Source of the DNA: Arthrobacter sp. AQ5-05 | Lineage (GTDB): Bacteria; Actinomycetota; Actinomycetes; Actinomycetales; Micrococcaceae | Direction of reading: 5' to 3' | Length of the DNA: 64,000 bases | Assembly (NCBI RefSeq): GCF_003287975.1 | Contig: NZ_QMKQ01000021.1 | Coordinates: 1-64,000, forward strand | Part shown: positions 1 to 57,776 of the stretch, one piece after another | Layout of the letters: every line of letters begins with the position of its first letter | Numbering within the stretch: the first letter of the stretch is position 1 | The notes under the pieces: generated by a model | What the model was told of the DNA's origin: nothing | The model's database searches: none | What the model saw: only the letters and a program-made list of their open reading frames with translations | Made by a program: the position numbers and the translations under genes

Positions 1-338
1 GATGCCTCGGACATGAGAACCCGCCAACCTTCAGGTGGTGCCTAACTGCCTGCGAACACCTTCAGGATCCACCCGGCACCCCGTAAAACCGCGACAACAC
101 GCCGTACCGACCCCCTGACTAGTTACCAATTTTCCCTGATACGACGGGCATTTCGTGGTTAAAACGCCGAGCAGCTCCCAAATCTCATCGGTGGATCAAG
201 GCTAAGAACGCCTGTTGCCGCATCGTCCAACAACAAGCTGCATGCCGTTGGGTACGCGACTCAGCAAAGCCTTAGCGTACGATTTTTTCCGTTTTCTGCG
301 GCGACCCCTTCCACGCCTGTGGGGTGAAACCCGGGGGC
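1..338. other. No recognisable gene
   Basis: Both strands were read and nothing family-like was found. The few open frames are short and arginine-rich, as expected by chance in GC-rich DNA. The stretch ends in a possible small reading frame just before the IS982 element. Confidence 0.5.
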
Positions 339-476
339 ATGATCGATGCCCGCGAGCGGCCCGAGTCCGGCTACCGGAAAGTAATTGCTGCAGGCTTGGA
401 CTACGAGGCTGCACTCTCACAATTGCTGGGCTCCCTTGAAGGTAGCGAGCGATTGCTTTCCATCCGTCTCCCCTAG
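339..476 (+). CDS. Possible small ORF cut by the IS982 left end
   Basis: A 45-codon frame starts at an ATG behind a GGGGG stretch and encodes a short acidic/leucine-rich peptide (MIDARERPESGYRKVIAAG at its start). Its stop codon lies in the first bases of the IS982 left inverted repeat (from 473). The peptide looks more protein-like than the surrounding frames, but I recognise no family. It could be the surviving 5' part of a gene interrupted by the insertion sequence, or chance. Confidence 0.3.
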   Translation: MIDARERPESGYRKVIAAGLDYEAALSQLLGSLEGSERLLSIRLP

Positions 477-496
477 ATGATTGAGTTCTATTCATT

Positions 497-1402
497 TCAG
501 TGGTCGTAGGCGGTCAGGGAGCGTTTGCGTGGCTCGTTGGTTTTCCAGTTGTGCCAGATTCCGGCCGAGAGGGCCAACAGTTTTGAGGCGACGCGGGCGT
601 ATAGCCCGTCGAGGGTCCGTGCCCCGTGGTGCTCGAGGCCGAGCTGGCCCTTGAGGCTGTCAAAGACGGACTCGATCCACTGGCGGATGCCCCCGAACTT
701 CCCGAACCGGGGCTTTTCGTCCTTGCGGTCCGGCCGCACCAGGTTGGCGCCGAGGTCCTCGGCGATGAACCGTTCGAATTCCTTGCCGGCGAAGCCCTTG
801 TCGGCGAGGATGACCTGCCCGTCGCGGACCAGGTGGTGGTCGTGGCGCAACAACGCCTCGGTGACCTCGCGTTCCCCGAGCTTGGGGTTGGCCAGTCCCC
901 AGATGACCGGCATGCCTTCCGGGGTGCTGATCAGGTACAGGCGGAAGCCCCAGAAGTAGCGTGAGTGCGAGGCGCAGTATCCGTAGCCGGCGTGCCCGGC
1001 CAGCTCGGAGCGCTTGACGGTTTCGCGGCTGGTGCCGCACGGGACCGGGGTCGAATCGAGCAGGCGGAGGATCTCGTGCCAGGATTCGGTGTCCCGTGCC
1101 AGGGCGGTGATCACCGCGGAGATCAGCGGTCCTGCAGCCCGCACCCGCTTGTTGTAGCCGGATTGCTGCGGGATCCCGGGGAATAGACCGCTCAGGTGGG
1201 TGCGCGCATAGCGGACCCACCGGGATTCGGAGGAGTGCCCGTGCAGCAGGTGCTGGGCCACGACCAGGCACAGCAGCTCGGCATCGCTCAAGATGGCCTT
1301 GCGGCCGGGTTTGCTCGACCGGTCGTATCCCAAATCCGGCAGGACACGATCGGTCGGCAGGACGTAGAGTGTGGTCAGGAGGGTGTTGAGTTTTGGGTTC
1401 AC
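497..1402 (-). CDS. IS982-family transposase
   Basis: The 301-residue protein is a DDE-type transposase that would move its own element. It carries the DSTPVPC segment (first catalytic Asp, about residue 115), the ILADKGF block (second Asp, about residue 199) and a C-terminal IESVFDSLKGQLGLEHHGAR stretch with the catalytic Glu. The length is normal for IS982 and no frameshift is seen, so the element may be active. Transcription runs leftward, away from the neighbouring amidohydrolase gene. Confidence 0.9.
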   Translation of the reverse strand: MNPKLNTLLTTLYVLPTDRVLPDLGYDRSSKPGRKAILSDAELLCLVVAQHLLHGHSSESRWVRYARTHLSGLFPGIPQQSGYNKRVRAAGPLISAVITALARDTESWHEILRLLDSTPVPCGTSRETVKRSELAGHAGYGYCASHSRYFWGFRLYLISTPEGMPVIWGLANPKLGEREVTEALLRHDHHLVRDGQVILADKGFAGKEFERFIAEDLGANLVRPDRKDEKPRFGKFGGIRQWIESVFDSLKGQLGLEHHGARTLDGLYARVASKLLALSAGIWHNWKTNEPRKRSLTAYDH

Positions 1403-1433
1403 ATACGAGACTTAGCACTCTTCGCCAGCGATC

Positions 1434-1467
1434 AACAGGGCCCGGGAACAAGTTCCCGGGCCCTGTT
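1434..1467. terminator. 16-bp stem hairpin inside the IS982 right end
   Basis: Two perfect 16-bp arms (1434-1449 and 1452-1467) enclose a 2-base loop. It sits downstream of the leftward amidohydrolase gene ending at 1513 and upstream of the transposase, so it could terminate the former and shield the latter. There is only a weak T-run. Confidence 0.6.
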
Positions 1468-1512
1468 TCGTCCTAACCACCGATTAGGACTAACTCATCT
1501 AGTGGGACGAGG

Positions 1513-2307
1513 TTAGTGCTGTTCGGCGAAGACCGGGTCTGCCGGAGCTTCCACCTCGGGCTGGGGATCCGAGAGGGTCTTCGGGACGGTGTCCTTGAAC
1601 AGCGGGAGGCGGTTGAGGTAATCCACCACCGAGTCCGTGGACTCCACGTCACCGAACTTGTTGTCGATGTCGTAGAGGTTCCACTGCACGACGCCCGGCA
1701 CGCGGTCCCCGATGGTCTCGCGGGGGATGATCGGGCGGAAGCCCTTGGCGATCGCGTCCTCGACGGTGTGGCGCACGCACCCGGCCGCGGTCGCACCGGT
1801 CACAATCAGGGTGTCGATGCGGTTGGAGGTCAGGAAGAGCTCGAGGTTCGTCCCCGGGAATGCCGAGGCACGGTTCTTCTCGAGCACGACCTCGCCCTCT
1901 GCCGGCGCGATGCGGTCATCAATCTGCGCCCAGTAGGAATCCGCCGGAAGGGTTTCCGTGGGAATCTTCGAGTACCACAGGCCCATGTCGTTCGTGCCGG
2001 AGGTCGCATCGCGGTTGCGGTACACGTTGGTGGTGTAGAAGACCGGGACGCCCTTGGCGCGCGCGGCCTCGTTGATCCGCTGCACGTTCGGGATGATCGT
2101 GTCCATGCCCGGGCAGCTGAACGGGTGGCCCGGACGGGTCCAGGCGTTTGCGAGGTCGATGTGGATGACGGCGGGGCGGTTGCCGTAGCCGATCCGGCGC
2201 TTGAATCCGCGCTCGTTGTAGATGCTGTTTCCGGCTTCGAACGCTTCTTCCAGCACTGCTGCCAGACGGGCTTCGATGTCGTTGAACTTCCCTGTCGCTT
2301 CAGTCAT
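1513..2307 (-). CDS. N-carbamoylsarcosine amidohydrolase (EC 3.5.1.59), copy 1
   Basis: This cytoplasmic cysteine hydrolase of the isochorismatase fold splits N-carbamoylsarcosine into sarcosine, CO2 and ammonia, the last step of the N-methylhydantoin route from creatinine. From the start MTEATGK the protein has 264 residues and places Asp51, Lys144 and Cys177 (in TAAGC) at the catalytic positions known from the Arthrobacter enzyme. That start is preferred over an upstream ATG 18 bases earlier because a GGAGAG ribosome site lies 5 bases before it. The gene is identical to the copy at 5529-6323. Its promoter carries the locus operator at 2336-2352. No creatinine deiminase or sarcosine oxidase is in view. 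Confidence 0.94.
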   Translation of the reverse strand: MTEATGKFNDIEARLAAVLEEAFEAGNSIYNERGFKRRIGYGNRPAVIHIDLANAWTRPGHPFSCPGMDTIIPNVQRINEAARAKGVPVFYTTNVYRNRDATSGTNDMGLWYSKIPTETLPADSYWAQIDDRIAPAEGEVVLEKNRASAFPGTNLELFLTSNRIDTLIVTGATAAGCVRHTVEDAIAKGFRPIIPRETIGDRVPGVVQWNLYDIDNKFGDVESTDSVVDYLNRLPLFKDTVPKTLSDPQPEVEAPADPVFAEQH

Positions 2308-2335
2308 TTTTCTCTCCACTCTCATTCACTGGGGT

Positions 2336-2372
2336 GTTGCTATCGAAGCAACAATGTTGCTCTGGTAAGTAC
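2336..2372. promoter_or_regulatory. Tandem IclR-type operator of amidohydrolase copy 1
   Basis: Positions 2336-2352 read GTTGCT-ATCGA-AGCAAC, a perfect palindrome. A degenerate second site with the same left half GTTGCT begins exactly 20 bp later (2356-2372). The same motif recurs before the other transcription units of the locus and before the IclR gene at 13030, which is the likely binding protein. Confidence 0.8.
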
Positions 2373-2555
2373 CATAGCGCATGGTTCGACCCAGCGCCAG
2401 AGCTTTGCCGAATCCGCATCTCCATCGGAGCAATCGCTCGGCAGGGCGTGCGGATTGGTGGGTGCGAGTATCGACAACCCGTCAAGGATCGGGTCCGCCC
2501 GCTCGTATTGAGCCTCCTCGCGCGGCTGGATGAATCAGGACAAAAGCCTTGACCT

Positions 2556-2592
2556 GTTGCTGTTAGAGCAGATAAGTTGTTGCCTGACCAAC
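2556..2592. promoter_or_regulatory. Tandem operator upstream of the MHS transporter
   Basis: Two sites lie 20 bp apart: GTTGCT-GTTAG-AGCAGA at 2556-2572 and GTTGTT-GCCTG-ACCAAC at 2576-2592. Each matches GTTGCT-N5-AGCAAC in 10 of 12 arm positions. They lie about 100 bp before the transporter start at 2694. The remainder of the 2308-2693 gap shows no gene. Confidence 0.7.
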
Positions 2593-2693
2593 AGTGGCCT
2601 GGATCACATACGAAATACTCGGCCCGCAGTATTCTGGGCTGGAAGTGAACCACCACGCGGTCTTCGGCGCCATCCCCCCTGAACGGAGACAAC

Positions 2694-4073
2694 ATGGAAC
2701 GCAACCTTGCAGACAGTTCACTGGAGAAGGTGAGCCCGGAGCGCCTACGAAAGGTGGTTCGCGCCTCTTTTGCGGGGACCGTAGTGGAGTGGTTCGACTT
2801 TGCCATCTACGGCTACATGGCAACTCATATTGCTGCCACCTTCTTCTCGTCCACGGATCCGGTCACAGGCCTGCTGGAGACGTTCGCCGTATTCGCTGTG
2901 GCATTCTGCCTGCGGCCATTGGGTGGAATCTTCTTCGGACGCCTGGGAGATCGCCTTGGACGCAAAAAGATCCTGGTACTGACTGTGCTGCTCATGTCCG
3001 GATCCACGGCCGCAATCGGTCTCATCCCAAGCCACGAAACGATCGGCATGTGGGCCGCCGTCCTACTGGTGGTTGCCCGGTGTTTGCAGGGGTTTTCCGC
3101 CGGCGGCGAATACGCAGGCGCCACGATCTACGTCGTCGAACACAGCCCCGACAGACACAGGGCCCGCTACTCGTCCGCCATGTCGGCGGCCACCTTTTCC
3201 TCATTCGCTCTCGCGGCCGGGCTCGGCGCGCTGCTCAGCTTTATCCTGCCGGCTGCGGCCATGGGCGATTGGGGCTGGCGCATCCTCTTCCTGTTGTCGG
3301 TGCCGATGGGCCTGGTTGCCTTCTACATTCGCGCCAAACTCCACGAGTCTCCCGAGTTCCAAGCGATGATCGACGATTCCGCCTCACGTCCCGCCCCGTC
3401 ACTGGAGACCGTCTTCCGCACCCAGTGGCGCGCGATGCTGCGCCTAGGCGGGTTTGTGATGCTCACGGCGCTCTCCTTCTACATCTACTCCACATATATG
3501 TCGACCTTCCTGATCAAGGTGGTCGGGCTGCCGCAGCACCTCGCGCTGTTCTCCAGTCTTATCTCGCTGACCATGGCGACGGCGTTCGCCCCGGTCATGG
3601 GCCGCGTCTCGGATCGCATAGGGCGCCGCCCCACCATGCAGGCCGCCGCCGGCCTCCTGGCCATCCTCACCATTCCGGCGTACATGATCGCCGAACAAGG
3701 AACGTTTGCAACCGCCGTTGCCAGCCAACTGCTCATAGGAATCGGCGCAGTAACCGCTAATGTGGTGACCTCGGTCCTGATGTCGGAAATGTTCTCAACC
3801 GACGTGCGCTTCGCAGCATCGGGCACCTGCTACAACATCACCTACGCCGTGTTCGGTGGCACCGCACCCTTCCTGGCAACGTGGCTTGTCGCCGGAACGG
3901 GATACTCGCTCTCCCCCGCCATCTACGTCGCAGCAATCGCCGTCGTATCATTCCTCGTCGCCACCTTCCTCATACCCGAGACCGCCGGACGACCTCTTCG
4001 CCGCTACCACGACGACCCCGTGGCCGCCGAGCCCGCGCGCGCGATGACCCCGCAAATGGCGCCCAAGGTTTGA
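2694..4073 (+). CDS. MHS-family MFS transporter, probable N-methylhydantoin/creatinine uptake
   Basis: A 459-residue, twelve-helix proton symporter of the metabolite:H+ symporter (MHS) family. The N-terminal GTVVEWFDFAIYGYMA signature is at about residues 28-43, and the loop 2-3 motif GRLGDRLGRKK is at about 82-92. A GGAG site precedes the ATG. It sits between the two identical amidohydrolase genes, on the opposite strand, and its promoter carries the same tandem operators, so co-induction with the hydantoin pathway is likely. The substrate is inferred from context only. The last 25 residues form a polar, proline-rich tail. Confidence 0.88.
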   Translation: MERNLADSSLEKVSPERLRKVVRASFAGTVVEWFDFAIYGYMATHIAATFFSSTDPVTGLLETFAVFAVAFCLRPLGGIFFGRLGDRLGRKKILVLTVLLMSGSTAAIGLIPSHETIGMWAAVLLVVARCLQGFSAGGEYAGATIYVVEHSPDRHRARYSSAMSAATFSSFALAAGLGALLSFILPAAAMGDWGWRILFLLSVPMGLVAFYIRAKLHESPEFQAMIDDSASRPAPSLETVFRTQWRAMLRLGGFVMLTALSFYIYSTYMSTFLIKVVGLPQHLALFSSLISLTMATAFAPVMGRVSDRIGRRPTMQAAAGLLAILTIPAYMIAEQGTFATAVASQLLIGIGAVTANVVTSVLMSEMFSTDVRFAASGTCYNITYAVFGGTAPFLATWLVAGTGYSLSPAIYVAAIAVVSFLVATFLIPETAGRPLRRYHDDPVAAEPARAMTPQMAPKV

Positions 4074-4271
4074 TGACCTGCCCGCTGCTCGAACCCGGCG
4101 GGGTTCAAACGTCTCGCATCAGCGGAAATTTCACGGTTATTGACTGCACCGACGCTGAAGTCTCCCGCCGCCGCAGGTATCGGATCCAGACTGGATCTTC
4201 AGTCAGCCAGCAGGACGTAGCGCAGGCCTCTTGTTCTCATTGACGTGATCTGATGTGCAATATCTTGGGCA

Positions 4272-4301
4272 AGCGGACCATCTCTGCAGAGATGGTCCGC
4301 T
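4272..4301. terminator. 30-bp perfect palindrome downstream of the MHS gene
   Basis: The two halves AGCGGACCATCTCTG and CAGAGATGGTCCGCT are exact reverse complements with no spacer. It lies 200 bp after the transporter stop and could act as a bidirectional terminator. No T-run follows, so a role as protein-binding site or mobile-element end is also possible. Confidence 0.5.
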
Positions 4302-5059
4302 CCTTCGGACGGGTCCGCTCGAAAGAAAATGCGCAGTGGCGCACATCCAGCTTCAAGGCTTGGGTGGAACCATCGCATCATGCAGTCACGGCATTCGGGG
4401 AGCTGTGGCTAGCGACGCCTCGACCGCCCTGGTCACGACACAGGATAGTAACGTCGCGGTCCACGCACGCGACGTATCAAGACCTGGTCACTAAGGATCT
4501 GGAGCACTTCCTTACTTTCGATCCGCGGATGCTGTCCGACCGAGGCCTCAGACCACGTCCTCTCCAAACACTTTTTGGTCGGGGAGCCAACCTCTCTTCT
4601 TCCTCCGTGACGTCACTACTGGAGGAGCCAATCGACGTTGTCGTCGCCGCAGGAACCAACATCATATTCATTGAGAACAAGAAAATCGGTCTGGATGACT
4701 TGTTCGATGAAGACGACCCGTTTGACGCCGAAAACTGCCGCTAGCTCCCCTGCCGTTCAATTAAGCGGTCCCGCCCGACGTCAACCCACGTCTGCAGTCC
4801 GGAATACGTGCCGCCCAGGACGCCAACCATGACCGGGCGGCACGCCTTGTCTTAAATTGTGAGACGAACCCCGGAACCCCTTTTAGAGCGCCGGGACCCC
4901 TGTTACGCATGTGAATGTTCAAGCCCATGTGCCTCACAGGAGTTTCTACGTGCCAACTTTCCATCTTCCCGCCGACCTTGGCCAATCCGGCGGGCACCCC
5001 CGGATCCCCGCCGTACCCCCCTGCCCCCACAGCCGCACGGTCGGAGCTTGGGACCCGGC
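4302..5059. other. No supported gene; one doubtful ORF
   Basis: The only long frame (4253-4744, plus strand, 163 codons) starts upstream of the 30-bp palindrome and reads through it. It has no family resemblance and no clear ribosome site, although its last 85 residues (acidic tail EDDPFDAEN) are less chance-like. I do not call it. The stretch probably consists of decayed DNA leading into the IS4 remnant. Confidence 0.45.
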
Positions 5060-5440
5060 GCACCTGGGCGAGCCGACCGGGCAACTGCCCGCCGACCTGG
5101 TGGGCCGGACGCTGGACGCCATGGGGAAGCGTGAACGCCGCGCCCGAACCCTACCCCCGGGTGGTCTGTACTTCACTTCGCGCTTGTCTTGGCCACGGTC
5201 ACCGGATCGGCACTCACCCAGGCCCGGCGTCGGATCGGGGTCCAGCCCCCCCGCACTGGCCCTTCGAGCTGCTCCGCGGCCCGGCCTCGACCGCCATCTG
5301 CCAGGGGTGCTGGTTCGGGTCCCTGCGCATCTACGCGATCGACGGCACCATCCTGACCCTGCCGGACACCGAGCAGGTCAAGACGAAGTACGGCGTGGCG
5401 TGCGGGGCGCCTGCTTCGGATGCCCGGGACTTCCCTGTTT
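5060..5440 (+). pseudogene. IS4-type transposase remnant, frameshifted
   Basis: Pieces of a transposase N-terminal region appear in order but in different frames. GEPTGQLPADLVGRTLDAMG (5070-5130) is followed in another frame by HFALVLATVTGSALTQAR, then by a third piece with YAIDGTILTLPDTEQVKTKY (about 5331-5390), where the DGT Asp is the first catalytic residue typical of IS4. The rest of the transposase is missing. The sequence stops at a hairpin just before the second copy of the 948-bp repeat, so this dead element marks an old rearrangement point. Confidence 0.65.
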
Positions 5441-5451
5441 TCCCAGATACG

Positions 5452-5492
5452 ACAACAGTCCGGCACCCTCTGGAGGGGTGCCGGACTGTTGT
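5452..5492. terminator. 17-bp perfect stem-loop
   Basis: Arms 5452-5468 and 5476-5492 are perfectly complementary (ACAACAGTCCGGCACCC) with a 7-base loop. It lies 37 bp downstream of the leftward amidohydrolase copy 2 and is a good candidate for its terminator, although the T-run is poor. Confidence 0.6.
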
Positions 5493-5528
5493 TGCCATGG
5501 CCTGGGGCCGCTGGCCAGTGGGACGAGG

Positions 5529-6323
5529 TTAGTGCTGTTCGGCGAAGACCGGGTCTGCCGGAGCTTCCACCTCGGGCTGGGGATCCGAGAGGGTCTTCGG
5601 GACGGTGTCCTTGAACAGCGGGAGGCGGTTGAGGTAATCCACCACCGAGTCCGTGGACTCCACGTCACCGAACTTGTTGTCGATGTCGTAGAGGTTCCAC
5701 TGCACGACGCCCGGCACGCGGTCCCCGATGGTCTCGCGGGGGATGATCGGGCGGAAGCCCTTGGCGATCGCGTCCTCGACGGTGTGGCGCACGCACCCGG
5801 CCGCGGTCGCACCGGTCACAATCAGGGTGTCGATGCGGTTGGAGGTCAGGAAGAGCTCGAGGTTCGTCCCCGGGAATGCCGAGGCACGGTTCTTCTCGAG
5901 CACGACCTCGCCCTCTGCCGGCGCGATGCGGTCATCAATCTGCGCCCAGTAGGAATCCGCCGGAAGGGTTTCCGTGGGAATCTTCGAGTACCACAGGCCC
6001 ATGTCGTTCGTGCCGGAGGTCGCATCGCGGTTGCGGTACACGTTGGTGGTGTAGAAGACCGGGACGCCCTTGGCGCGCGCGGCCTCGTTGATCCGCTGCA
6101 CGTTCGGGATGATCGTGTCCATGCCCGGGCAGCTGAACGGGTGGCCCGGACGGGTCCAGGCGTTTGCGAGGTCGATGTGGATGACGGCGGGGCGGTTGCC
6201 GTAGCCGATCCGGCGCTTGAATCCGCGCTCGTTGTAGATGCTGTTTCCGGCTTCGAACGCTTCTTCCAGCACTGCTGCCAGACGGGCTTCGATGTCGTTG
6301 AACTTCCCTGTCGCTTCAGTCAT
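5529..6323 (-). CDS. N-carbamoylsarcosine amidohydrolase (EC 3.5.1.59), copy 2
   Basis: The 264-residue protein is identical to the one encoded at 1513-2307, including Asp51, Lys144 and Cys177 and the GGAGAG ribosome site. This copy is divergent from the fused hydantoinase gene at 7188, whose product it would consume. Each copy keeps its own operator-bearing promoter, so two active copies probably raise the dose of the final hydrolytic step. The downstream flank is an IS4 remnant rather than the IS982 element that follows copy 1. Confidence 0.94.
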   Translation of the reverse strand: MTEATGKFNDIEARLAAVLEEAFEAGNSIYNERGFKRRIGYGNRPAVIHIDLANAWTRPGHPFSCPGMDTIIPNVQRINEAARAKGVPVFYTTNVYRNRDATSGTNDMGLWYSKIPTETLPADSYWAQIDDRIAPAEGEVVLEKNRASAFPGTNLELFLTSNRIDTLIVTGATAAGCVRHTVEDAIAKGFRPIIPRETIGDRVPGVVQWNLYDIDNKFGDVESTDSVVDYLNRLPLFKDTVPKTLSDPQPEVEAPADPVFAEQH

Positions 6324-6351
6324 TTTTCTCTCCACTCTCATTCACTGGGGT

Positions 6352-6368
6352 GTTGCTATCGAAGCAAC
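6352..6368. promoter_or_regulatory. IclR-type operator of amidohydrolase copy 2
   Basis: GTTGCT-ATCGA-AGCAAC, identical to the site at 2336-2352 and again followed by a GTTGCT half-site 20 bp on. It lies 29 bp upstream of the start codon, where a bound repressor would block transcription. Confidence 0.8.
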
Positions 6369-6464
6369 GATGTTGCTCTGGTAAGTACCATAGCGCATGG
6401 CTAGGCCCAGCGCCAGAGCTTTGCCGAATCCGGATCTCCATCGGGCCGGCTGCCCGGCAGGGCG

Positions 6465-6981
6465 CGAACATCCGCGGGTGCGCCACTCCGGAAGCCCGGC
6501 AAGGAGCCGACTCCTGCCCCCAGACCCAGCAGGCCGGGCAGCAGGATTGGAGCCGAGCCCCGGGTGAATGCCGAGGCCCCCTCCGTGACGGAGGCGCACA
6601 TGGCCGCGACCTCGCACCGGCGATCGGGGCGTCGATCCGCCCAGAGGCTTAGTCGATGGATGGGTGCCAGGGGAGGTGGCGGATGGTGATCGCATTGCAG
6701 CGGCCACCGGCCTGAAGCTCACCCGCCCCGGTCCCGCCCTCGATCTTCCTTCAACTTTCCTGCCCAGACCGGGATGAAGGCGGCGGGGAACGTCACGAGG
6801 CTGAAGGGGACGCCCATCCACCGATCGGGAACGGCAGCCCCTCCATGCGGCGTCCAGCGTGGAGGCCGCGGGCCCTCCGGGCTTGACCACCGCATGGACC
6901 AGGAGGCGATGGGGTCGGCGACTGCGGCAGGCCACTGCGCACCCAAAAAAATATCGAATGGATCCCGCTTAGGCATTGCGT
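6465..6981. other. Intergenic stretch without recognisable gene
   Basis: Between the divergent amidohydrolase and hydantoinase promoters there is over 500 bp of GC-rich DNA. The minus-strand frames here (for example 6719-6976) have no family resemblance. The region may be eroded coding DNA, but nothing can be named. Confidence 0.5.
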
Positions 6982-7018
6982 GTTGCTCAGAGGGGCATTA
7001 GATTGCTACCTAAGCAAC
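6982..7018. promoter_or_regulatory. Tandem operator of the hydantoinase operon
   Basis: ATTGCT-ACCTA-AGCAAC at 7002-7018 matches the locus palindrome in 11 of 12 arm positions. A GTTGCT half-site begins exactly 20 bp upstream (6982-6987). The start codon follows 170 bp later, leaving a long leader. Confidence 0.75.
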
Positions 7019-7187
7019 GTTGCGTGATTCGAATCACACGAATTGTCGGAGAAGGTCCCAGCACTGTGGGCCCGCCTTCCCCTCCGGGGCCCGACCCGGG
7101 CCCCGTTCCCTGCATCCCCTGCCCCTCCCCCAGGCCCTTCCTCTTTCCTCAACAGACCTGGGTATCCCCCTTTCGAAAGGACCCATC

Positions 7188-10100
7188 ATGAAGCGCATCG
7201 GAGTCGACGTCGGCGGCACATTCACCGACCTTTACTATTCAGACGATGAACGCCGCATCGCCGTCGTCGAGAAGGTTCCCTCCACCCCACACGACCCGTC
7301 CGAGGCCGTGGTCAATGGCATCAAGATGCTCTGTGAGAAGGCCGGTGTGCCCCTGTCGGAGATCGACCAGCTGGTGCACGGGACCACGGTGGCCACGAAC
7401 ACCGCGCTGACGCATACCGGGGCGGAGGTCGGGATGATCACCACCGAGGGATTCCGGGACATCCTGCACATTGCCCGCCACAAGAAGCCGCACAATTTCT
7501 CCCTCCAGCAGGATTTGCCGTGGCAGACCAAGCCGCTGATCAAGCGCCGCCACCGGCTCACCGTGAAGGAACGCATCACCGCCCCCCACGGCGAGGTCCT
7601 GGTTCCCCTGGACGAGGACGAGGTCCGCACCCGGGTGCGCGAACTCAAGGCCGCAGGTGTCCAGGCCATCGCCGTGTGCCTGCTGCACTCCTACCTGAAT
7701 CCCGCCCACGAGCGGCGCATCGGGCAGATCGTCAACGAGGAGTTCCCCGAGGCCTACCTGTCCCTGTCCAGCGAGATCGTCCCCCTGTACCGGGAGTACG
7801 AGCGGTTCTCCACCACTGCCCTGAATGCCTATGTCGGGCCGCGGGTCTCGCGTTACCTGCACCGTCTGCAGGAACAGGCCGAAGGCTTGGGCTACCGGCG
7901 CGAGATCCTGCTGATGCAGTCCTCCGGCGGCATGGTGCCCATCCGCGAGGCCGCCAAGCGACCGGTCACCCTGATGATGTCCGGTCCGGTGGGGGGCCTG
8001 ATCGGCGGCATGTGGGCCGCCAAGCAGTCCGGCTTCGAGAACGTCGTCACCCTGGACATCGGGGGCACCTCGGCGGACATCGGCGTCGCCTACCAGGGCG
8101 AGCTGCGCATGCGCCACCTGCTGGACACCAAGATCGGGGACCACCAGGCCATGGTTCCCATGGTGGACATCGACACCATTGGCGCCGGCGGCGGTTCCAT
8201 CGCCTATGTCGATGCCGGCGGCGTCTTCCGCGTCGGCCCGCAGTCGGCCGGCGCCGTCCCGGGACCGGTCTGCTACGGACGCGGGGGCACGGAGCCAACG
8301 TCGACCGACGCCCAGGTGCTGCTGGGCCGGATGCGTCCGGACCGCATGCTGGCCGGCTCGGGCCTGGACATGGACCTCGACGGCGCCCGCACGGCCATGG
8401 AGAAACTGGCCGACAAGCTCGGCATGTCCGTCGAGGAGGCCGCCCTGGGCGCGCTGCAGATCCAGAAATTCGGCATGACCCAGGCCATCGAGCAGAACTC
8501 GGTGCGCCGTGGCTACGACCCGCGCGACTTCACCCTGGTCGCGGCCGGCGGCGCCGGCGCTCTGTTCGCCTGCGAGATCGCCGCCGAACTGGAGATCCCG
8601 CATGTGTTGGTCCCGGCCCACCCGGGCATCATCGCCGGCATCGGGCTGCTGGCCACCGACGAGCAGTACGAGTTCGTTGCCACCAACCGGTTCAGGTTCG
8701 CCGACGCCGATCCGGCGGCCATCCAGGCATCCTTCGAACAACTTGAACGCGACGCCAATGCGCAGCTGGACGCCGAGGAAGTCCCCGCCGAACGGCGCAG
8801 GATCGACTGGCTGGCCGACGCCCGCTATGAGGGCCAGGGCTACGAGATTCGCTTCGATGTCCCCGAAGGTCCGGTGACCACCGCCTGGCTGGACCAGGCC
8901 GAGGCCGCCTTCCACGACGCCCACTTCGAGGAGTACGGCCACCGCTTCAAGGACGGCACCGTGGAGGTCATCAACATCCGCGTGGAGGCCCGGGCCGTGA
9001 TGGACGAGCTGCCCACGCCGGAGGCGACGAAGTCCGGCTCCCTGGAACAGGCCCTGGTGGAGACCCGTCCGGTGACCTTCCAGCAGGACGGCAAGCCGGT
9101 CACCCTGGACACCGGCTTCTATGACCGGGACAAGATGGGCGTGGGAACCACCTTTGCCGGCCCGGCAGTCATCGAGCAGTACGACTCCACCACGGTCATT
9201 CCCCCGGGCTTCACCGGGACGGTCGACGAGGCCGGCAACCTGGTCATCGCCTGCCCGGCGGCCACCCAGAGCGTCGAGCAGCTGGCAACCCCGATCCTGA
9301 TGCGCGTGATCGGCGGCGCACTGAACTCCGCGGCCAAGGAGATGGCCTCGGTGCTCTTCCGCATGGCCTACTCCTCGATCATCCGCGAGTCCGAGGACCT
9401 GGGTGCCGGGCTGTTCGACAAGGACGGCAACGTGCTGGCCGAATCCGACTCCACCCCGATGTTCATGGGTTCGATGCCCAAGATCGTCAAGGGCGTCATC
9501 TCGGTCCTGGGCGATGACATCCACGAGGGGGATGTCATCCTGCACAACGATCCGTACCTGGGCGCCACGCACTCCCCGGACGTGGCGATCATCGAACCGA
9601 TCTTCCACGACGGGCAACTCGTCGGTTTCGCCGGCGCCTCCGGGCAGCTCATCGACAACGGCGGTGCGTTCTCCGGGCTGATGGTGGACATCCAGGACAT
9701 CCAGTCCGAGGGCACCATCTTCCGGGCGGTGAAGGTCTATGAGAAGGGTGTCCGCCAGGCGTCCTTGATCCAGCACATCCTCAACAACACCCGGACACCC
9801 ACCTCCAACGAGGGCGACTTCCAGGCGATGATCGCCGCCTGCGACCTCGCCAAGTCCCGCTACCTTGCGCTGGTGGAACGCTATGGCCTGGACTCGGTCC
9901 GCGACGCCGGCCAGTTCTGGATCGACTACTCGGAGAGGATGCTGCGCCAGGAGATCGCCAAGGTCCCGGACGGAGTGTACGAGACGGAGGTCGGCTACCT
10001 CGACGACGACGGGCGCAACTACGGCAAGAAACTGCCCATCGTGGTCAAGGTCATCGTCGAGGGCGACGAGATCACCTACGACCTGACCGGTTCCTCCGAA

Positions 10101-11054
10101 CAGGTGCCCACCGCCTACAACTGCGCGTTCGAGGGCACCACGGTCTCGGCGTTCACGTTCATCACCCGCATGATGTTCCTGGACGAGGTCGCCTTCCCGG
10201 TGTTCGTCCCGCAGAACGAGGGCATGCTCAAGCCGCTGAAGGTGATCGCCCCGGAAGGCACCATCTTCAACCCGACCTACCCGGCGGCCACCTTCAGCCG
10301 GTTCTCCCAGGTCCAGCGGGCCGTGGACCTGGCCCTGCGGGCACTGGCTCCGGTGATGCCCGAACGGGTCACCGCCGGGAACTCGGCGCACATCCACTTC
10401 ATGTCCTACTCCGGCTGGGACCAGAAGCAGGGCGAGTACTGGGTCTACCTCGAGGTCAACGAAGGCTCCTACGGCGGGCGCCAGCACTCGGACGGGCCCG
10501 ACTCGGTCGACAACCTCATCGCCAACACCCGCAACAACCCGATCGAGGAACTCGAGTGGCGCTTCCCGATGCGCACCGACCGCTACGAGCTGCGCGACGA
10601 TCCGGCAGCCGCCGGTGAGTTCCGCGGTGGCATCGGCATCGTGCGGGAGAACACCTTCCTGACCGACACCGCGGTCACCTGCGAGGGTGAGCGCCACGAC
10701 TCGGATGTTCCCTGGGGCGCCTTTGGCGGCCATGACGGCCTGAACGCGTCCTTGGTGAAGAATCCCGGCCGGGACGGGGAGGCGTACTGGCCTTCCAAGG
10801 TCACCGGCTGGCAATTGACGGCCGGCGATTCCCTCCAGATCACTGTGCCCAGCGGCGGCGGATTCGGCGATCCGCTCAAGCGCGACCCGATGAAGGTACT
10901 CGAGGACGTGCTGGATGGCTTCACCACCGCCGAGGCCGCCACCCGCGACTACGGCGTGGTTCTCAAGGAGGTCAACGACCAGCTCACGGTCGACCTGGTC
11001 GCCACCGCAGAACTCCGGAAGAACGTGGCATCCGAGCTCAGTCCCATCAACTGA
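7188..11054 (+). CDS. ATP-dependent N-methylhydantoin amidohydrolase, HyuA-HyuB fusion (EC 3.5.2.14 likely)
   Basis: This 1288-residue protein joins both halves of the hydantoinase/oxoprolinase family. The A half (about 1-690) opens with the ATP-binding GVDVGGTFTDLYY at residues 4-16 and carries a second ASKHA-type motif, LDIGGTSADIG, near residue 290. The B half starts near residue 694 (TPILMRVIGGALNSAAKEM). The length equals that of fused 5-oxoprolinases. The neighbouring N-carbamoylsarcosine amidohydrolases point to N-methylhydantoin as substrate, opened with ATP to N-carbamoylsarcosine. Oxoprolinase is the alternative by sequence alone. The ATG at 7188 follows AAAGGA; an upstream in-frame extension lacks such a site. 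It probably forms an operon with the MFS gene at 11206. Confidence 0.88.
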   Translation: MKRIGVDVGGTFTDLYYSDDERRIAVVEKVPSTPHDPSEAVVNGIKMLCEKAGVPLSEIDQLVHGTTVATNTALTHTGAEVGMITTEGFRDILHIARHKKPHNFSLQQDLPWQTKPLIKRRHRLTVKERITAPHGEVLVPLDEDEVRTRVRELKAAGVQAIAVCLLHSYLNPAHERRIGQIVNEEFPEAYLSLSSEIVPLYREYERFSTTALNAYVGPRVSRYLHRLQEQAEGLGYRREILLMQSSGGMVPIREAAKRPVTLMMSGPVGGLIGGMWAAKQSGFENVVTLDIGGTSADIGVAYQGELRMRHLLDTKIGDHQAMVPMVDIDTIGAGGGSIAYVDAGGVFRVGPQSAGAVPGPVCYGRGGTEPTSTDAQVLLGRMRPDRMLAGSGLDMDLDGARTAMEKLADKLGMSVEEAALGALQIQKFGMTQAIEQNSVRRGYDPRDFTLVAAGGAGALFACEIAAELEIPHVLVPAHPGIIAGIGLLATDEQYEFVATNRFRFADADPAAIQASFEQLERDANAQLDAEEVPAERRRIDWLADARYEGQGYEIRFDVPEGPVTTAWLDQAEAAFHDAHFEEYGHRFKDGTVEVINIRVEARAVMDELPTPEATKSGSLEQALVETRPVTFQQDGKPVTLDTGFYDRDKMGVGTTFAGPAVIEQYDSTTVIPPGFTGTVDEAGNLVIACPAATQSVEQLATPILMRVIGGALNSAAKEMASVLFRMAYSSIIRESEDLGAGLFDKDGNVLAESDSTPMFMGSMPKIVKGVISVLGDDIHEGDVILHNDPYLGATHSPDVAIIEPIFHDGQLVGFAGASGQLIDNGGAFSGLMVDIQDIQSEGTIFRAVKVYEKGVRQASLIQHILNNTRTPTSNEGDFQAMIAACDLAKSRYLALVERYGLDSVRDAGQFWIDYSERMLRQEIAKVPDGVYETEVGYLDDDGRNYGKKLPIVVKVIVEGDEITYDLTGSSEQVPTAYNCAFEGTTVSAFTFITRMMFLDEVAFPVFVPQNEGMLKPLKVIAPEGTIFNPTYPAATFSRFSQVQRAVDLALRALAPVMPERVTAGNSAHIHFMSYSGWDQKQGEYWVYLEVNEGSYGGRQHSDGPDSVDNLIANTRNNPIEELEWRFPMRTDRYELRDDPAAAGEFRGGIGIVRENTFLTDTAVTCEGERHDSDVPWGAFGGHDGLNASLVKNPGRDGEAYWPSKVTGWQLTAGDSLQITVPSGGGFGDPLKRDPMKVLEDVLDGFTTAEAATRDYGVVLKEVNDQLTVDLVATAELRKNVASELSPIN

Positions 11055-11077
11055 TCCCGAAGCCGTAGCGGAAAAAG

Positions 11078-11124
11078 GGGGCGGATTGGAGGCCAGCGTC
11101 ATTGCCTGGTCGCTAATCCGCCCC
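11078..11124. terminator. Stem-loop between hydantoinase and MFS genes
   Basis: Arms GGGGCGGATT (11078-11087) and AATCCGCCCC (11115-11124) are perfect, followed by TTCGTT. It may partially terminate or process the hydantoinase message before the downstream transporter. Confidence 0.55.
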
Positions 11125-11205
11125 TTCGTTCCTGATCCACCACCCTGTCTCTGTCATTTTCCCGCCCTGCCTCTGTCATTTCCCCACCGTCCTCAAGGAA
11201 TCGTC

Positions 11206-12570
11206 ATGTCTACTGTGCAACCAACTCAATTTGTCGAATCGGATGTCCGGCCCAAGGACGTCCGGTTGGCCACCTGGATCTGCTTCTTCGCCTGGACCTT
11301 CGCCGTCTACGACTTCGTCCTCTTCGGGAACCTGTTGCCCCAGCTCGCCGAGGACCTCGGATGGACAGGGGCCCACTCGACCGAAGTCAACACCTGGGTC
11401 ACGGCAGGCACGGCCATCGTGGCCTTCGCGATCGGCCCGATCGTGGACCGGATCGGCCGGCGCAAGGGCATCCTGATCGCCGTGGCCGGAGCCGCCGTGG
11501 CCTCGCTGCTGACCGCCATGGTCGGCTGGGTCATCGGCCTCGCCGCCGGACTGGGGCTCGTCTTCCTGGTCCTGGTGCGGTCCCTGGCCGGTCTCGGCTA
11601 CGCCGAACAGGCCATCAACGCGGCCTATCTCAACGAGATGTTCGCCCACAACAGCGACCCGGCCAAGGCCAAGCGCCGAGGGCTGGTCTATTCGCTGGTC
11701 CAGTCCGGCTGGCCGGTCGGCTCCGTGCTCGCCGCCGGGTCCGTGTACCTGCTGTTCCCCATCGGCGGTTGGCAGCTCTGCTTCATCGTCGCCGCCATCC
11801 CCGCCGTCTTCATCCTCTACGCCGGACGCTGGCTCAAGGAAAGCCCACAGTTCTCCCATCGTCACCAAATCGACCGGATGATCAAGGCCGGTCAACTGGA
11901 GGTGGCACAGTTGCTCGGACAGAAGCACGGCATCGATGTCTCTGAGAAGGCCAGTCCCCTGGCCTCCGTTTTCCGCGGGGAATCGCTGCGCTCCACCGTG
12001 ACGATCGGTGGCGCCTTCCTCCTGAACTGGCTCGGTGTCCTGTCCTTCGCGATCCTTGGCACCTCGCTGTTGACGGCACCCGACGGCAAGGGCATCGAGT
12101 TCAGCAACGCGCTACTGGTCCTGATCATCTCCAATGCCACGGCCTTCGCCGGTTACCTTTTCCATGGCTGGCTGGGTGACCGAATTGGACGTCGCAACGC
12201 CATTGGCATCGGTTGGATCCTGTGCGCCGGGTCCTTCTTCACCATGCTCCAAGCCCCGAACGGGAACTTCCCGCTCATCATCGCACTCTATAGCGCCGGG
12301 CTGTTCTTCCTCATCGGCCCCTTCTCGGCCCTGATGTTCTTCACCGGTGAGAGTTTCCCTGTCCATACCCGGGCCACCGGCAGCTCGCTGATCAACGCCG
12401 CGGGCCAGGTCGGTGCGATCATCGGCGGCCTGCTGATCACCGCTTCCCTGGCCGCGGGCAGCGGCTGGATCAATGCCACGTTGTGGTGGGGTGTCATCCC
12501 CATCCTGGCCTCCGGGATCCTGATCTTCGCTGCCCGCAACGTCGATCCCCGCACCGTCCGCACCGACTGA
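11206..12570 (+). CDS. MFS transporter of the hydantoin locus
   Basis: A 454-residue twelve-helix major facilitator. The first helix contains WICFFAWTFAVYDFVLFG, and the loop 2-3 motif DRIGRRKG lies near residue 85. A second such motif, GDRIGRRNAIG, lies at about 324-334. An AAGGA site precedes the ATG. It lies 151 bp behind the hydantoinase gene on the same strand, without an obvious operator of its own, and is followed by a strong terminator. It is therefore probably co-transcribed and moves a pathway substrate or product. It differs from the MHS transporter at 2694, giving the locus two unrelated carriers. Confidence 0.85.
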   Translation: MSTVQPTQFVESDVRPKDVRLATWICFFAWTFAVYDFVLFGNLLPQLAEDLGWTGAHSTEVNTWVTAGTAIVAFAIGPIVDRIGRRKGILIAVAGAAVASLLTAMVGWVIGLAAGLGLVFLVLVRSLAGLGYAEQAINAAYLNEMFAHNSDPAKAKRRGLVYSLVQSGWPVGSVLAAGSVYLLFPIGGWQLCFIVAAIPAVFILYAGRWLKESPQFSHRHQIDRMIKAGQLEVAQLLGQKHGIDVSEKASPLASVFRGESLRSTVTIGGAFLLNWLGVLSFAILGTSLLTAPDGKGIEFSNALLVLIISNATAFAGYLFHGWLGDRIGRRNAIGIGWILCAGSFFTMLQAPNGNFPLIIALYSAGLFFLIGPFSALMFFTGESFPVHTRATGSSLINAAGQVGAIIGGLLITASLAAGSGWINATLWWGVIPILASGILIFAARNVDPRTVRTD

Positions 12571-12598
12571 CGCGCCTGAACTCCGAACCACGGACACC

Positions 12599-12649
12599 GT
12601 CCGCCCGGCGGCAACTCCCTGTTTCCCAGGGAGTTGCCGCCGGGCGGAC
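12599..12649 (+). terminator. 23-bp perfect-stem terminator
   Basis: Arms 12599-12621 and 12627-12649 are perfectly complementary with a 5-base loop, 28 bp after the MFS stop. It marks the end of the hydantoinase operon. The rest of the gap up to the IclR gene holds only its operator. Confidence 0.85.
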
Positions 12650-12858
12650 ATTAATGAGTCCGGGCCACTCCAGCATCCTCTGGACGTAGCGTTGGAACAG
12701 CCGAACCACGCAGCGGAGCATCCGATGCCTGCGTGCCCGGGTTGCTTCCGTGCTCCCTGGAAGCGCGAACCGCAAGGGTGCCGCTGCCACGTGCGCTCGT
12801 GCTGGGCCTGTCCGGGAGTGGGCCGGATGAACGGCGGGCCGTTGCCCGCCCCCCGAAA

Positions 12859-12895
12859 GGTGCTTCATAAGACATATAGTTGCTGGTAAAGCAAC
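12859..12895. promoter_or_regulatory. Tandem operator of the IclR gene (autoregulation)
   Basis: GTTGCT-GGTAA-AGCAAC at 12879-12895 is a perfect copy of the locus palindrome. A weaker site, GGTGCT-TCATA-AGACAT, begins exactly 20 bp upstream (12859-12875). The presence before the regulator gene itself supports autoregulation. Confidence 0.78.
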
Positions 12896-13029: not shown

Positions 13030-13848
13030 GTGGTGGGAAAGACGCAACAGGTTTCGGAGAACACCCAAGGTGTTGCCGCGTCGCTGCTCAATGGCCTGGC
13101 GGTATTGGAGGCGTTTTCCATCGAGAACCCCGTCCTGGGGGTCACCGAGATCGCAAACCGGGTCAATCTGCACAAGAGCACCGTCTCCCGGATCCTGAAC
13201 GGGCTGGCCGAGACCGGATACATCCAGCGGGACGAGCAAACGGGGCGATTCCGGCTCGGCCTGGGCCTCATCATGCTCTCCGGGCCGCTCTTGGCCGACC
13301 TGGACGTCCGGCGTGCGGCCCTGCCCTATCTTGAGGGCCTGACATCCGCCACCCGGGAAACCGCTGCCATCTCGGTGTGGAACGGGAAGGAGGCGATCGT
13401 GGTGGAACAGGTGGCCAGTCCCCACCAGGTTAAGCACACCGCCGCAATCGGCACCCGCTATTCCCGGTACGAAAGCTCATCGGTGCGCGTTCTGCTGGCC
13501 GAACTTCCGCCGGCCGAGGTACAGCGCCTCCTGGGGGACGGAACCATGACGATTGAGGCCGACAGCACGGCACCGCACCCGGTGGCCGCGCATCTGGAGC
13601 AAGTGCGGGAGACCGGCTACGCGGTCAATGACGGGTACACCACGGACGAGGAATACGGGGTCTCCGCCCCGGTGCGTGACTACCGGGGGATCGTCGTGGG
13701 GTGCATCACCGTCAGCGCGCCACGCTCGCGCGTGTACAAGCTGAACAGCTTCGAGGCGCTGGCCGAGGCCGTCACAGGCGCTGCCGGGCAGGTCTCGGAG
13801 CGGCTCGGGGCCGCACCGGCCACCAAGGCCGCGGGCGTTCAGGCGTAA
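13030..13848 (+). CDS. IclR-family regulator of the N-methylhydantoin locus
   Basis: A 272-residue regulator with an N-terminal winged helix (about residues 15-75, recognition helix around NLHKSTVSRILNGLAE) and a C-terminal effector domain (about 90-255). Start is GTG at 13030 (a GTG at 13033 is equally possible) after GAAGAAGG. Its promoter and those of the two amidohydrolases, the MHS carrier and the hydantoinase share GTTGCT-N5-AGCAAC, so it probably controls the whole locus in response to a pathway intermediate such as N-methylhydantoin. The effector is inferred. Confidence 0.88.
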   Translation: MVGKTQQVSENTQGVAASLLNGLAVLEAFSIENPVLGVTEIANRVNLHKSTVSRILNGLAETGYIQRDEQTGRFRLGLGLIMLSGPLLADLDVRRAALPYLEGLTSATRETAAISVWNGKEAIVVEQVASPHQVKHTAAIGTRYSRYESSSVRVLLAELPPAEVQRLLGDGTMTIEADSTAPHPVAAHLEQVRETGYAVNDGYTTDEEYGVSAPVRDYRGIVVGCITVSAPRSRVYKLNSFEALAEAVTGAAGQVSERLGAAPATKAAGVQA

Positions 13849-52623: not shown

Positions 52624-53090
52624 TTAGCGCCCAGGCAGCGCCTGTGCGCCGCGCAGTTCCTTGGACAGCTCGTGGGCGTGGTGCAGCAACAGCCGGCCCG
52701 CTCGGGCTGCCGGCCGGCGCTGAACCTCGACTCGATGCCGGTCAGGCTCAGCGCCCACGCCGGTTGGTCGGCCGCATCGAAGACGGCCGTTCCCATTCCC
52801 CAGCTGCCTTCCACGATCAATCCGGGATTCACCGCCCAGCCCCGTTCCCGGGTCTCGGCAATGGGCTGCCTCAGCAACTCCTGACCATGCTCGCTGCCGT
52901 GCCCCGCTGCGAGGTCACGGCCCGCCACCTAGCGTTCGATGGCCTGCTCGGGCAGGAAAGAAAGGATCGCCAACCCCGCCGAGGCCACCCGGGTGGGTAT
53001 CCCCGACCACCCGCCCGGAGCGCTGGTCCACCCCCGGCAGACCACCCCTGCGGGTAGTAGCGCTCCACCCCGACCCGCAGTGCAGACTGA
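52624..53090 (-). pseudogene. IclR-family regulator, C-terminal half, frameshifted
   Basis: Pieces of an IclR effector domain occur in order on the minus strand but in shifting frames: VGVERYYPQGWSAGVDQ, then ETRERGWAVNPGLIVEGSWG and DQPAWALSLTGIESRFSAGR, ending LLLHHAHELSKELRGAQALP. The DNA-binding half is absent. It stands directly upstream of, and divergent from, the carboxylase operon, so it may be the former regulator of that operon. Confidence 0.68.
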
Positions 53091-53142
53091 TCAAACACAA
53101 CCGCATATGACTCACATCACATGCCAGGCTTTGGGAGATTCC

Positions 53143-55065
53143 ATGGAACGTTTGATCAACATAGACAACGGTGGCACCCTGACCGACATCGTCGTCGGAA
53201 GCGGCACCGACTTCACCTTCACGAAGACGCTGACAACCCCGGCCGACCTGTCCCAGTGTCTCTTCGATGGCCTGGCCAAGGCCTCGACCACTATCTACGG
53301 GCAGGAAGACCTACCGTCCTTGCTCCACTCCACGCGCCACATCCGCTATTCATCGACCCAAGGCACCAACGCATTGGTCCAGGGAAAAGGTCCACGCATC
53401 GGCCTGATCACCGACGACCCCAATCTCGTGGCGGCGCTGCGCAAAGGTCCCGAAGAAATCAGGCTTTTTGACGACCTGATCGGAGAACGCGTAGGTCTGC
53501 TTCCGGTGGACGGCGACGAGGAATCCCGCGCCCGGTTGCTGGTCACCGAGATCAACCGCCTCACCACGGCCGGTGCCGAGCGCCTGGTCGTTGCCGCAAC
53601 GGACCCTGACCGCGAAAAGCTCTATAAGCGTGCGATGCTGAAGAACTTCCCCCGGCACTTGCTCGGATCCGTGCCGGTGCTCTTCTCCTGGGAATTCACC
53701 TCCGACACCTTGCGCAGCCGCCGGATCTGGTCGGGAATCATCAATTCCTTCCTCCACCCCACCGTCGAACGTTTCCTCTACAGCGCCGAACACCGGCTAC
53801 GTTCCTACAAGGTCAAGAACCCGTTGCTGATCTACCGCAACGACGGGGCTTCCTCCCGCGTGGCCAAGTCGGTGGCATTGAAGACCTACTCCTCGGGCCC
53901 GCGCGGCGGGCTTGAAGGAACCCGGGCCCTGGCGGATGCCTACGGGCTCAAGCATGTTCTGATGATCGACGTGGGTGGGACCACCACGGACGTCGGATCG
54001 GTACTGAACTCGGAAATCTCCGCGGACCGCCGTGGAAGCGTGAAGGGTGTGCCCATTTCCTACGAGATGAGCAACGTCCATTCCAGGGGCATCGGCGGAA
54101 GTTCTGTCATCGCCGTGCAGAACGGCGAGATCACCGTTGGCCCCGACAGCGTGGGCGCGGCACCCGGGCCGGCTTGTTTCGGGTTCGGCGGCCGCCAGGC
54201 AACCATCACCGACGTCAATCTGCTGCTGGGTGTGCTCGATCCTGCCACCTACCTCAATGGGGAAATGAAACTGGATGCCGAGCGCGCCAGGGCGGTCATC
54301 ACCTCGACCGTTGCCGAGCCCTTGGGCATCAGCCTCGACGAGGCCCTGATTCGCATGGAGCGGACCTACGCCGAGCAGATGGCTTCGGCCTTCTCCGGTG
54401 CGATCCAGGACGCGGAAACAACGACCGTTGCCGCGTTCGGTGGCGGCGGGCCGATGAGCGCATGCCTTGCGGCCCGGATCGCGGGAGTCCGCCACGTGCT
54501 GATCCCGCGTCTCGCCGCGGTGTTCTCCGCCTTCGGGATCAGTTTCTCGGATATCTCACAAACCTATGAAACCGACATCACCGGGGCATCCGCCGCACAG
54601 ATCGATGAGGCAAGGCTGGAGATGGAAGGACGTGCGGCCCGTGACATGTTCCAGGAAGGACACACCATCACTGAATGCGGCCTTGACTGGACGCTTGTCA
54701 TTGAAAACGCAGATGGTTCCTTGGCCAAGGAATCGCTATTCGACGAAACCTCAACCCCGCGGATATCGGACGGCCAGAGGGCATTGCTCTCACTGAAATG
54801 CACGTTTGCCCTCCCACACCCGACGCTGCCGGGCAACCATGAACAGTCAAAGAGCGAGGCAGTGGCTGCGGGAACCCGCTCGGTCCGTTCCTCTGCCGAT
54901 TCGGTCGAACAGATCCCGGTGTACCAGCTCGAGGAGCAAGCGCCCGGCGCCACCGCCGCGGGACCGGCCATCGTGGAGGGACCGTTCTTCACGGCGAGGG
55001 TTCCTGCCGGTTGGGTCCTCGACATTTCCGCCGCAGGCGACCTGCTGCTTTCCGACTCGCAGTAG
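53143..55065 (+). CDS. apcA: Hydantoinase A-type subunit, ApcA-like carboxylase subunit
   Basis: A 640-residue member of the hydantoinase/oxoprolinase A family. It begins MERLINIDNGGTLTDIVVG, an altered first phosphate loop (DNGGTLTD instead of DxGGTFTD), and has a second ATP motif MIDVGGTTTDVGS near 278-290 and AAFGGGGPMSACLAARI near 430. GGGAG stands 5 bases before the ATG. It leads a five-gene operon whose gene order and sizes (640, 145, 725, 771, 267) match the subunits of acetophenone carboxylase. It would act in ATP-dependent activation of the ketone or bicarbonate; which one is not visible. The alternative is another hydantoinase-type carboxylase. Confidence 0.75.
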   Translation: MERLINIDNGGTLTDIVVGSGTDFTFTKTLTTPADLSQCLFDGLAKASTTIYGQEDLPSLLHSTRHIRYSSTQGTNALVQGKGPRIGLITDDPNLVAALRKGPEEIRLFDDLIGERVGLLPVDGDEESRARLLVTEINRLTTAGAERLVVAATDPDREKLYKRAMLKNFPRHLLGSVPVLFSWEFTSDTLRSRRIWSGIINSFLHPTVERFLYSAEHRLRSYKVKNPLLIYRNDGASSRVAKSVALKTYSSGPRGGLEGTRALADAYGLKHVLMIDVGGTTTDVGSVLNSEISADRRGSVKGVPISYEMSNVHSRGIGGSSVIAVQNGEITVGPDSVGAAPGPACFGFGGRQATITDVNLLLGVLDPATYLNGEMKLDAERARAVITSTVAEPLGISLDEALIRMERTYAEQMASAFSGAIQDAETTTVAAFGGGGPMSACLAARIAGVRHVLIPRLAAVFSAFGISFSDISQTYETDITGASAAQIDEARLEMEGRAARDMFQEGHTITECGLDWTLVIENADGSLAKESLFDETSTPRISDGQRALLSLKCTFALPHPTLPGNHEQSKSEAVAAGTRSVRSSADSVEQIPVYQLEEQAPGATAAGPAIVEGPFFTARVPAGWVLDISAAGDLLLSDSQ

Positions 55066-55126
55066 CCACTGATCATTCCCTTCCCTTCGCCTTTGAACCA
55101 CCAAGACAGAAAGCCAGGCAACGACC

Positions 55127-55564: not shown

Positions 55565-55593
55565 GCCAGAATTCCAAAAGGAGCAAACAGGAC

Positions 55594-57771: not shown

Positions 57772-57776
57772 GAGCA

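Follow-up and report, generated by a model that had tools for sequence, protein, structure and literature searches.

How do two genes come to be identical to the base when the DNA in front of them is diverged? This question is raised by the first 64 kb of contig C21 of Arthrobacter sp. AQ5-05 (GCF_003287975.1, a draft assembly of 116 contigs; NZ_QMKQ01000021.1, positions 1–64,000, referred to as the window), which was analyzed computationally. A gene for N-carbamoylsarcosine amidohydrolase (CSHase) is present in two direct copies (from 1501 and from 5517, constantly offset by 4016), which flank an intact transporter gene of the MHS family. Comparison with related genomes makes it probable that the native copy 2 converted an older second CSHase gene at the position of copy 1, beside an acquired MHS transporter gene; the event, its direction, the origin of the older copy and the dosage are what we infer from these comparisons.

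The first-pass annotation had described identical 948-bp repeats. Two direct copies are real, but perfect identity is confined to 852 bp (1501–2352, with its partner at 5517–6368), and across the 948 bp there are 936 matches and 12 mismatches. These lie at 2353, 2385, 2387, 2389 and 2417, followed by seven in 2429–2438. The first two bases of the tract may belong to the end of an adjacent insertion sequence (IS) of the IS982 family. The tract holds the ribosome-binding site and the whole coding sequence of copy 1 (1513–2307, minus strand, 264 amino acids), so the genes are identical to the base, as had been claimed; copy 2 occupies 5529–6323 on the same strand. The intact gene between them (2694–4073) bears out the description of a flanked transporter. 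The DNA was said to differ upstream of the operator. Instead, the first mismatch (2353) falls in the 3-nt spacer of GCAAC-N3-GTTGC and thus within the operator region. Deletion or amplification of the transporter gene by the direct repeats is plausible and possible in principle. The two copies may also, as had been suggested, reflect selection for creatinine-derived nitrogen. The 116 contigs hold no third near-identical CSHase; two other protein matches are 24% and 30% identical.

The copies could be an assembly artefact, with one gene consensus set at two loci or with copies that really differ. This is very improbable even for a 116-contig draft in which the contig ends 1.5 kb to the left of copy 1 and the identical stretch is 852 bp long: each copy has flanks of its own to the left and to the right, and 12 differences are found within 948 bp. 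Furthermore, a comparable gene pair in Arthrobacter rhombi has two differences of its own, though that genome is also a draft.

Which copy is native is indicated by congeners. Three of them (G006, G001, which matches Paeniglutamicibacter gangotriensis, and G010, which matches P. psychrophenolicus) have one full-length CSHase gene each, syntenic with copy 2. Collinearity extends from window position 5391 or 5417 to ~12700 (5417–12785 in G006), with DNA identities of 93.0% (G006), 92.2% (G010) and 91.6% (G001). Thus, copy 2 is in its ancestral place. An inverted repeat downstream of it (5452–5492), likely a terminator, is kept in the congeners and absent beside copy 1. Among the 15 genomes of the own genus that were searched, 11 further genomes are without a CSHase match at E 1e-18. 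A comparison of copy number in relatives, which the first-pass annotation had suggested, accordingly gave one full-length copy in the three congeners and two in A. rhombi. The gene differs from those of the congeners at 26, 34 and 30 of 792 positions and from the next nearest sequence at 46 of 735. In a tree from which five partial or distant rows (L041_b, L043_b, L061, L064 and L066) were left out, both copies fall into one group with the congeners and a single genome from another genus (support 100/99). With so few differences and this grouping, both copies are of the native type. Copy 2 is the likely donor of a conversion and copy 1 the likely recipient.

Recent duplication followed by divergence, or conversion limited to the gene, had both been offered as explanations without a choice between them; the upstream flanks favor conversion. 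Copy 1 and copy 2 show no difference in 792 gene positions, 5 in 76 positions of the promoter zone (2353–2428) and 27 in 71 positions of the next block, a diverged homologous 5' flank (2429–2500). The congeners differ from copy 2 at 20–24 of 74–76 positions in the promoter zone and at 20/69, 20/70 and 18/71 in the outer block, beside 26, 34 and 30 of 792 in the gene. From these rates ~42 gene differences are expected for the copy pair, and none is observed. Given the congener distribution, the probability that all 32 differences fall upstream is ~2e-9, provided that the outer block is homologous and sites are independent. Both figures use the three congeners only; upstream alignments of distant rows gave few or no columns. 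The two copies within the genome are therefore closer to each other (0/792) than to any of the three orthologues (26, 30 and 34 of 792). Their identity stops inside a diverged homologous flank on the 5' side only, as the 3' side is cut by the IS982 element.

Homology of the outer flank is supported by several comparisons. In register with copy 2, 30 of 52 positions match in 2429–2480; among ~20000 random window pairs none was as good and the best reached 29. The local alignment score of 39 against copy 2 was reached by none of 3000 window targets and none of 500 shuffles. Against 18 upstream regions, no shuffle of 500 was as good in five cases (copy 2, L060, L047, L053 and L041). Judged by these alignments, we read the outer flank of copy 1 as probable old homology with the upstream DNA of copy 2. 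The zone 2353–2428 resembles an edge that was copied only in part, or else a longer tract of older date.

In a recent duplication, illegitimate recombination, or recombination linked to an IS, would have placed a segment ending near 2428 beside the transporter gene; differences upstream would stem from the junction or have arisen later. The marked drop of identity after 2428, the IS982 end at ~1502 and the single full-length copy in the three congeners are in line with such an event, as is the fact that the copy 1 flank is not distinguished at the 0-of-500 level from 13 of the 18 upstream regions. Nevertheless it is unlikely. The segment 2429–2480 is homologous in register and is no random junction, five promoter differences stand against none in 792 coding bases, and A. 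rhombi shows the same pattern with the register kept through the promoter. After a simple tandem duplication the flanks at the breakpoint would be either unrelated or equally identical, whereas the 5' flank found here is homologous and diverged. Because the DNA beyond the identical tract is neither identical nor unrelated, a recent plain duplication is disfavored.

Several points weigh against conversion of an older copy. Without the outer block, all five differences fall in 2353–2428, which has a p of ~0.008 under simple divergence and is suggestive only. Of the three congeners, two are among the 13 upstream regions from which the copy 1 flank is not distinguished (shuffles as good: 23 of 500 for L033 and 105 of 500 for L038). 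The diagnostic flank is only ~70 nt long and the best random pair (29) is close to the observed 30. As the promoter differences are unevenly scattered, the tract has no sharp end. No genome in the sample has DNA close to the copy 1 flank, and the assembly is a draft. Finally, the only second CSHase-like sequence of the congeners is an N-terminal fragment of 86–111 amino acids (53–64% identical), which is no obvious ancestor.

These congener fragments (L033, 12970–13284; L034, 12542–12817; L035, 11477–11731) adjoin an IclR gene and an MHS transporter gene and form a conserved truncated paralogue; at these three places the identity is 53–60%. As the source of copy 1 the fragments find no support, as they are 53–64% identical and are oriented with their transporter gene, not away from it.

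The surroundings of copy 1 seem to differ in origin from the gene itself. The neighboring gene (2694–4073, plus strand), divergent from copy 1, encodes an intact MHS-family MFS transporter that scores below the curated cut-off of the MHS subfamily model. It is single and not duplicated. Its nearest DNA is found in Pseudarthrobacter-type genomes (86–88% in 4 of 395 genomes sampled from the family). Homology to such genomes continues upstream as far as 2511 (73–79%), and downstream the segment 4151–4379 matches one of them at 72%. The nearest transporter of a congener is 64–66% alike where aligned. As the transporter gene is unduplicated and lies in Pseudarthrobacter-type DNA, the layout does not result from one duplication of the native locus. 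Divergent pairs of CSHase and MHS genes exist elsewhere (L118, L119 and L121): the genus to which Citricoccus belongs has two such loci, and a genome from a further genus has one. Thus, the layout at copy 1 is a known arrangement and not a by-product of duplicating the copy 2 locus. That copy 1 was itself acquired horizontally was also considered and rejected: its sequence clusters with those of the congeners, even though the transporter is Pseudarthrobacter-like.

A second case is found in A. rhombi (G081, locus L153), which belongs to another genus. Its two CSHase genes are separated by 9.2 kb and flank an N-methylhydantoinase gene, an MFS transporter gene and an IclR gene. They are identical at 797 of 799 bases, from the ribosome-binding site to three bases past the stop codon. 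The promoters just upstream match in register at 49 of 84 positions, which none of ~20000 random pairs equals. Further upstream (18/72) and downstream (22/80) the register is lost, and the local alignment downstream is weak (3 of 500 shuffles as good).

In the family sample (395 genomes, with at most six candidates per genome scored), 37 genomes match CSHase at E 1e-60 and 29 have a hit of at least 90% identity. Among these 29, only the genome analyzed here (G000) and A. rhombi have two such genes. Counts of two copies are lower bounds, since identical copies may have been collapsed in draft assemblies. CSHase matches occur in 14 of 206 genomes of the G413 genus (5 of the 14 already in the family survey), and G540 matches twice, with 92% and 63% identity; in the genus of G081, one of three genomes matches. 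The second hits in G130, G180 and G540 are a different paralogue (61–64% identical). None of the sister species searched (15 genomes of the own genus and 3 of the G081 genus) has both copies. Because the pattern occurs in two separate lineages and the other second hits are paralogues of 61–64% identity, gene-restricted near-identity has at least two origins, provided that both drafts are correct. Both sampled genomes with two such copies show identity limited to the gene; neither shows the alternative. It is possible, if rather doubtful, that CSHase is under recurrent concerted evolution in this family, in which, wherever a genome has two such genes at separate loci, conversion keeps the enzymes identical and the promoters diverge around fixed operator half-sites.

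For the locus in the window, conversion would have proceeded as follows. A second CSHase gene would have been located beside the horizontally acquired MHS transporter gene, in the divergent layout known from other genera. Homologous recombination would then have copied the native copy 2, which is located beside the N-methylhydantoinase gene, onto copy 1 in a non-reciprocal manner. The copied tract would span the whole gene and fade in the promoter, where the two loci were too unlike, and its 3' edge would now be set by the IS982 end. Both genes retain a promoter region and the same operator-like element, which would probably result in two equally regulated doses of one enzyme.

The operator-like element is found on the minus strand at 2336–2360 (copy 1) and 6352–6376 (copy 2). 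It reads GCAAC-N3-GTTGC-N7-GCAAC on the gene strand of copy 1; the half-sites of copy 2 are the same and one spacer base is different. Both elements are putative. The first palindrome occurs in the window at the two CSHase copies only (0.13 expected; equalled by one of the shuffles). The second has 10 sites in the window with at most one mismatch, compared with 2.9 expected and no more than 7 in 100 shuffles. Among them, the sites at the two CSHase copies and at the IclR gene are perfect, and the one at the N-methylhydantoinase gene has one mismatch. In relatives with a CSHase gene of at least 90% identity, 25 of 30 distinct upstream regions contain at least one of the two elements. A slightly relaxed pattern was used, which gave 28 of 33 rows; three rows repeat one place through overlapping loci, and the two regions of the window are included in the 25 of 30. 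Neither element was found under this pattern upstream of CSHase at L050, L056, L057, L058 and L059. The N3 spacer, site of the first difference between copies 1 and 2, varies freely among relatives.

Since the same motif is located upstream of both copies and is kept in most relatives, both probably answer to one regulator. By its position, the IclR-family protein encoded at 13030–13848 (plus strand) is the likely candidate. A perfect operator-like palindrome lies upstream of its gene (12879–12895). This suggests that the IclR gene is autoregulated together with the CSHase and N-methylhydantoinase genes.

Other duplicates with identity limited to the gene are known. For bacterial protein genes present in two copies, tuf is a case in which conversion has been examined closely; in Salmonella the duplicate tuf genes (EF-Tu) are kept alike by gene conversion, according to the available part of PMC5485169. 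As there, two gene copies are present and identity is confined to the gene. However, tuf is a conserved informational gene, whereas CSHase is a catabolic gene that occurs twice in 2 of the 29 sampled genomes with a hit of at least 90% identity. Long-lasting concerted evolution in prokaryotes was reported for 26 genes (PMC6053082, as far as its accessible text goes), with the same feature that paralogues within a genome are closer than orthologues between genomes; in the accessible main text of that paper the word amidohydrolase is absent. Among the matches listed in a literature search there is none on duplicated CSHase genes. The mechanism is already known, and the CSHase pair adds a modest further case, which is somewhat strengthened by the parallel in A. 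rhombi. If conversion did occur, a catabolic gene pair with identical coding sequences, diverged promoters and shared operator-like motifs, occurring in two genera, would be a handy natural system for studying how tracts end at differing flanks and whether the dose of the last hydrolase is selected. The pair also serves as a warning that base-identical copies need not imply recent duplication.

The IS982-family element lies at 473–1502 on the minus strand, with the transposase at 497–1402, and on the right it directly adjoins the 3' end of copy 1. We infer its ends from imperfect terminal inverted repeats (arms 470–493 and 1482–1505). Both ends read CTAGATGA. As a related element in L053 has CTAG too, this motif is counted as presumably part of the element, though a 4-bp target duplication is conceivable. 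The element would then be without a target duplication, and a rearrangement may have taken place at that end. To the right of the transporter gene, a transposase-like remnant (4911–5390, plus strand; IS4-type N-terminus) matches PF13006 weakly (E 0.0033, 18.1 bits, cut-off 25) and lies to the left of the synteny break at 5391–5417. With IS982 on the left and this remnant on the right, a composite transposon or IS-borne cassette carrying CSHase and the transporter gene comes to mind, but it is hardly credible. The IS982 element and the remnant belong to different families, the remnant is fragmentary and scores below threshold, and a DNA search of the own genome gave no second IS982, only a 41-base match at 83%. 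The composite transposon was rejected, because its cargo would be enclosed by two copies of one IS, whereas here a single IS982 faces an IS4-like remnant.

Positions 1–500 of the window, taken as the continuation of the 3' side of copy 1, have no match to any compared locus. Segments 1–127 and 127–210 recur at 99–100% on five other contigs (C8, C43, C41; C26, C56), in the case of C41 and C26 less than 300 bases from where the contig starts; this dispersed repeat probably broke the assembly. Segment 245–317 matches plasmid records, at annotations of Tn3-family transposases or recombinases in several of the matches listed. It resembles what we take to be a Tn3-type terminal repeat, the body of which would run off the contig start. 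A plasmid origin was rejected: no plasmid record covers 80% of 1–7100 at one place, and the CSHase relatives on plasmids are less than 60% identical in 136 of 136 records.

The annotation of the enzyme and its creatinine setting are supported. The CSHase product aligns from end to end with the N-carbamoylsarcosine amidohydrolase of Arthrobacter sp. (pdb entry 1NBA; query 2–265 to chain 1–264, 574 bits), by which the start codon was placed, and carries an Isochorismatase domain. With this full-length match the protein itself is unremarkable, and any novelty lies in the copy arrangement. Adjoining copy 2 and divergent from it is a fused N-methylhydantoinase gene (HyuA-HyuB, 1288 residues; 7188–11054, plus strand), with residues 1–1287 matched by pdb entry 7HK5. 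Creatininase and the alpha and beta subunits of sarcosine oxidase (soxA, soxB), all above the NCBIfam cut-off, are encoded within ~13 kb on contig C10. Gene content thus makes it likely that this host has a route to sarcosine that starts from creatinine or N-methylhydantoin. The creatininase cluster (L164, C10 28437–40996) also includes an NCS1-type permease (Pfam) and serine hydroxymethyltransferase beside the sarcosine oxidase subunits. In Corynebacterium glutamicum ATCC 14067, cshA and hyuB are creatine/creatinine genes regulated by AmtR of the TetR family, according to the accessible part of PMC8864220. CSHase and hydantoinase genes of the same pathway, with sarcosine as product, are thus present in both; the regulator there is AmtR, whereas in the window an IclR gene is the neighbor. 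Large open reading frames at 52939–60092 resemble, on inspection, further HyuA/HyuB-type subunits (hydantoinase or acetone carboxylase-like).
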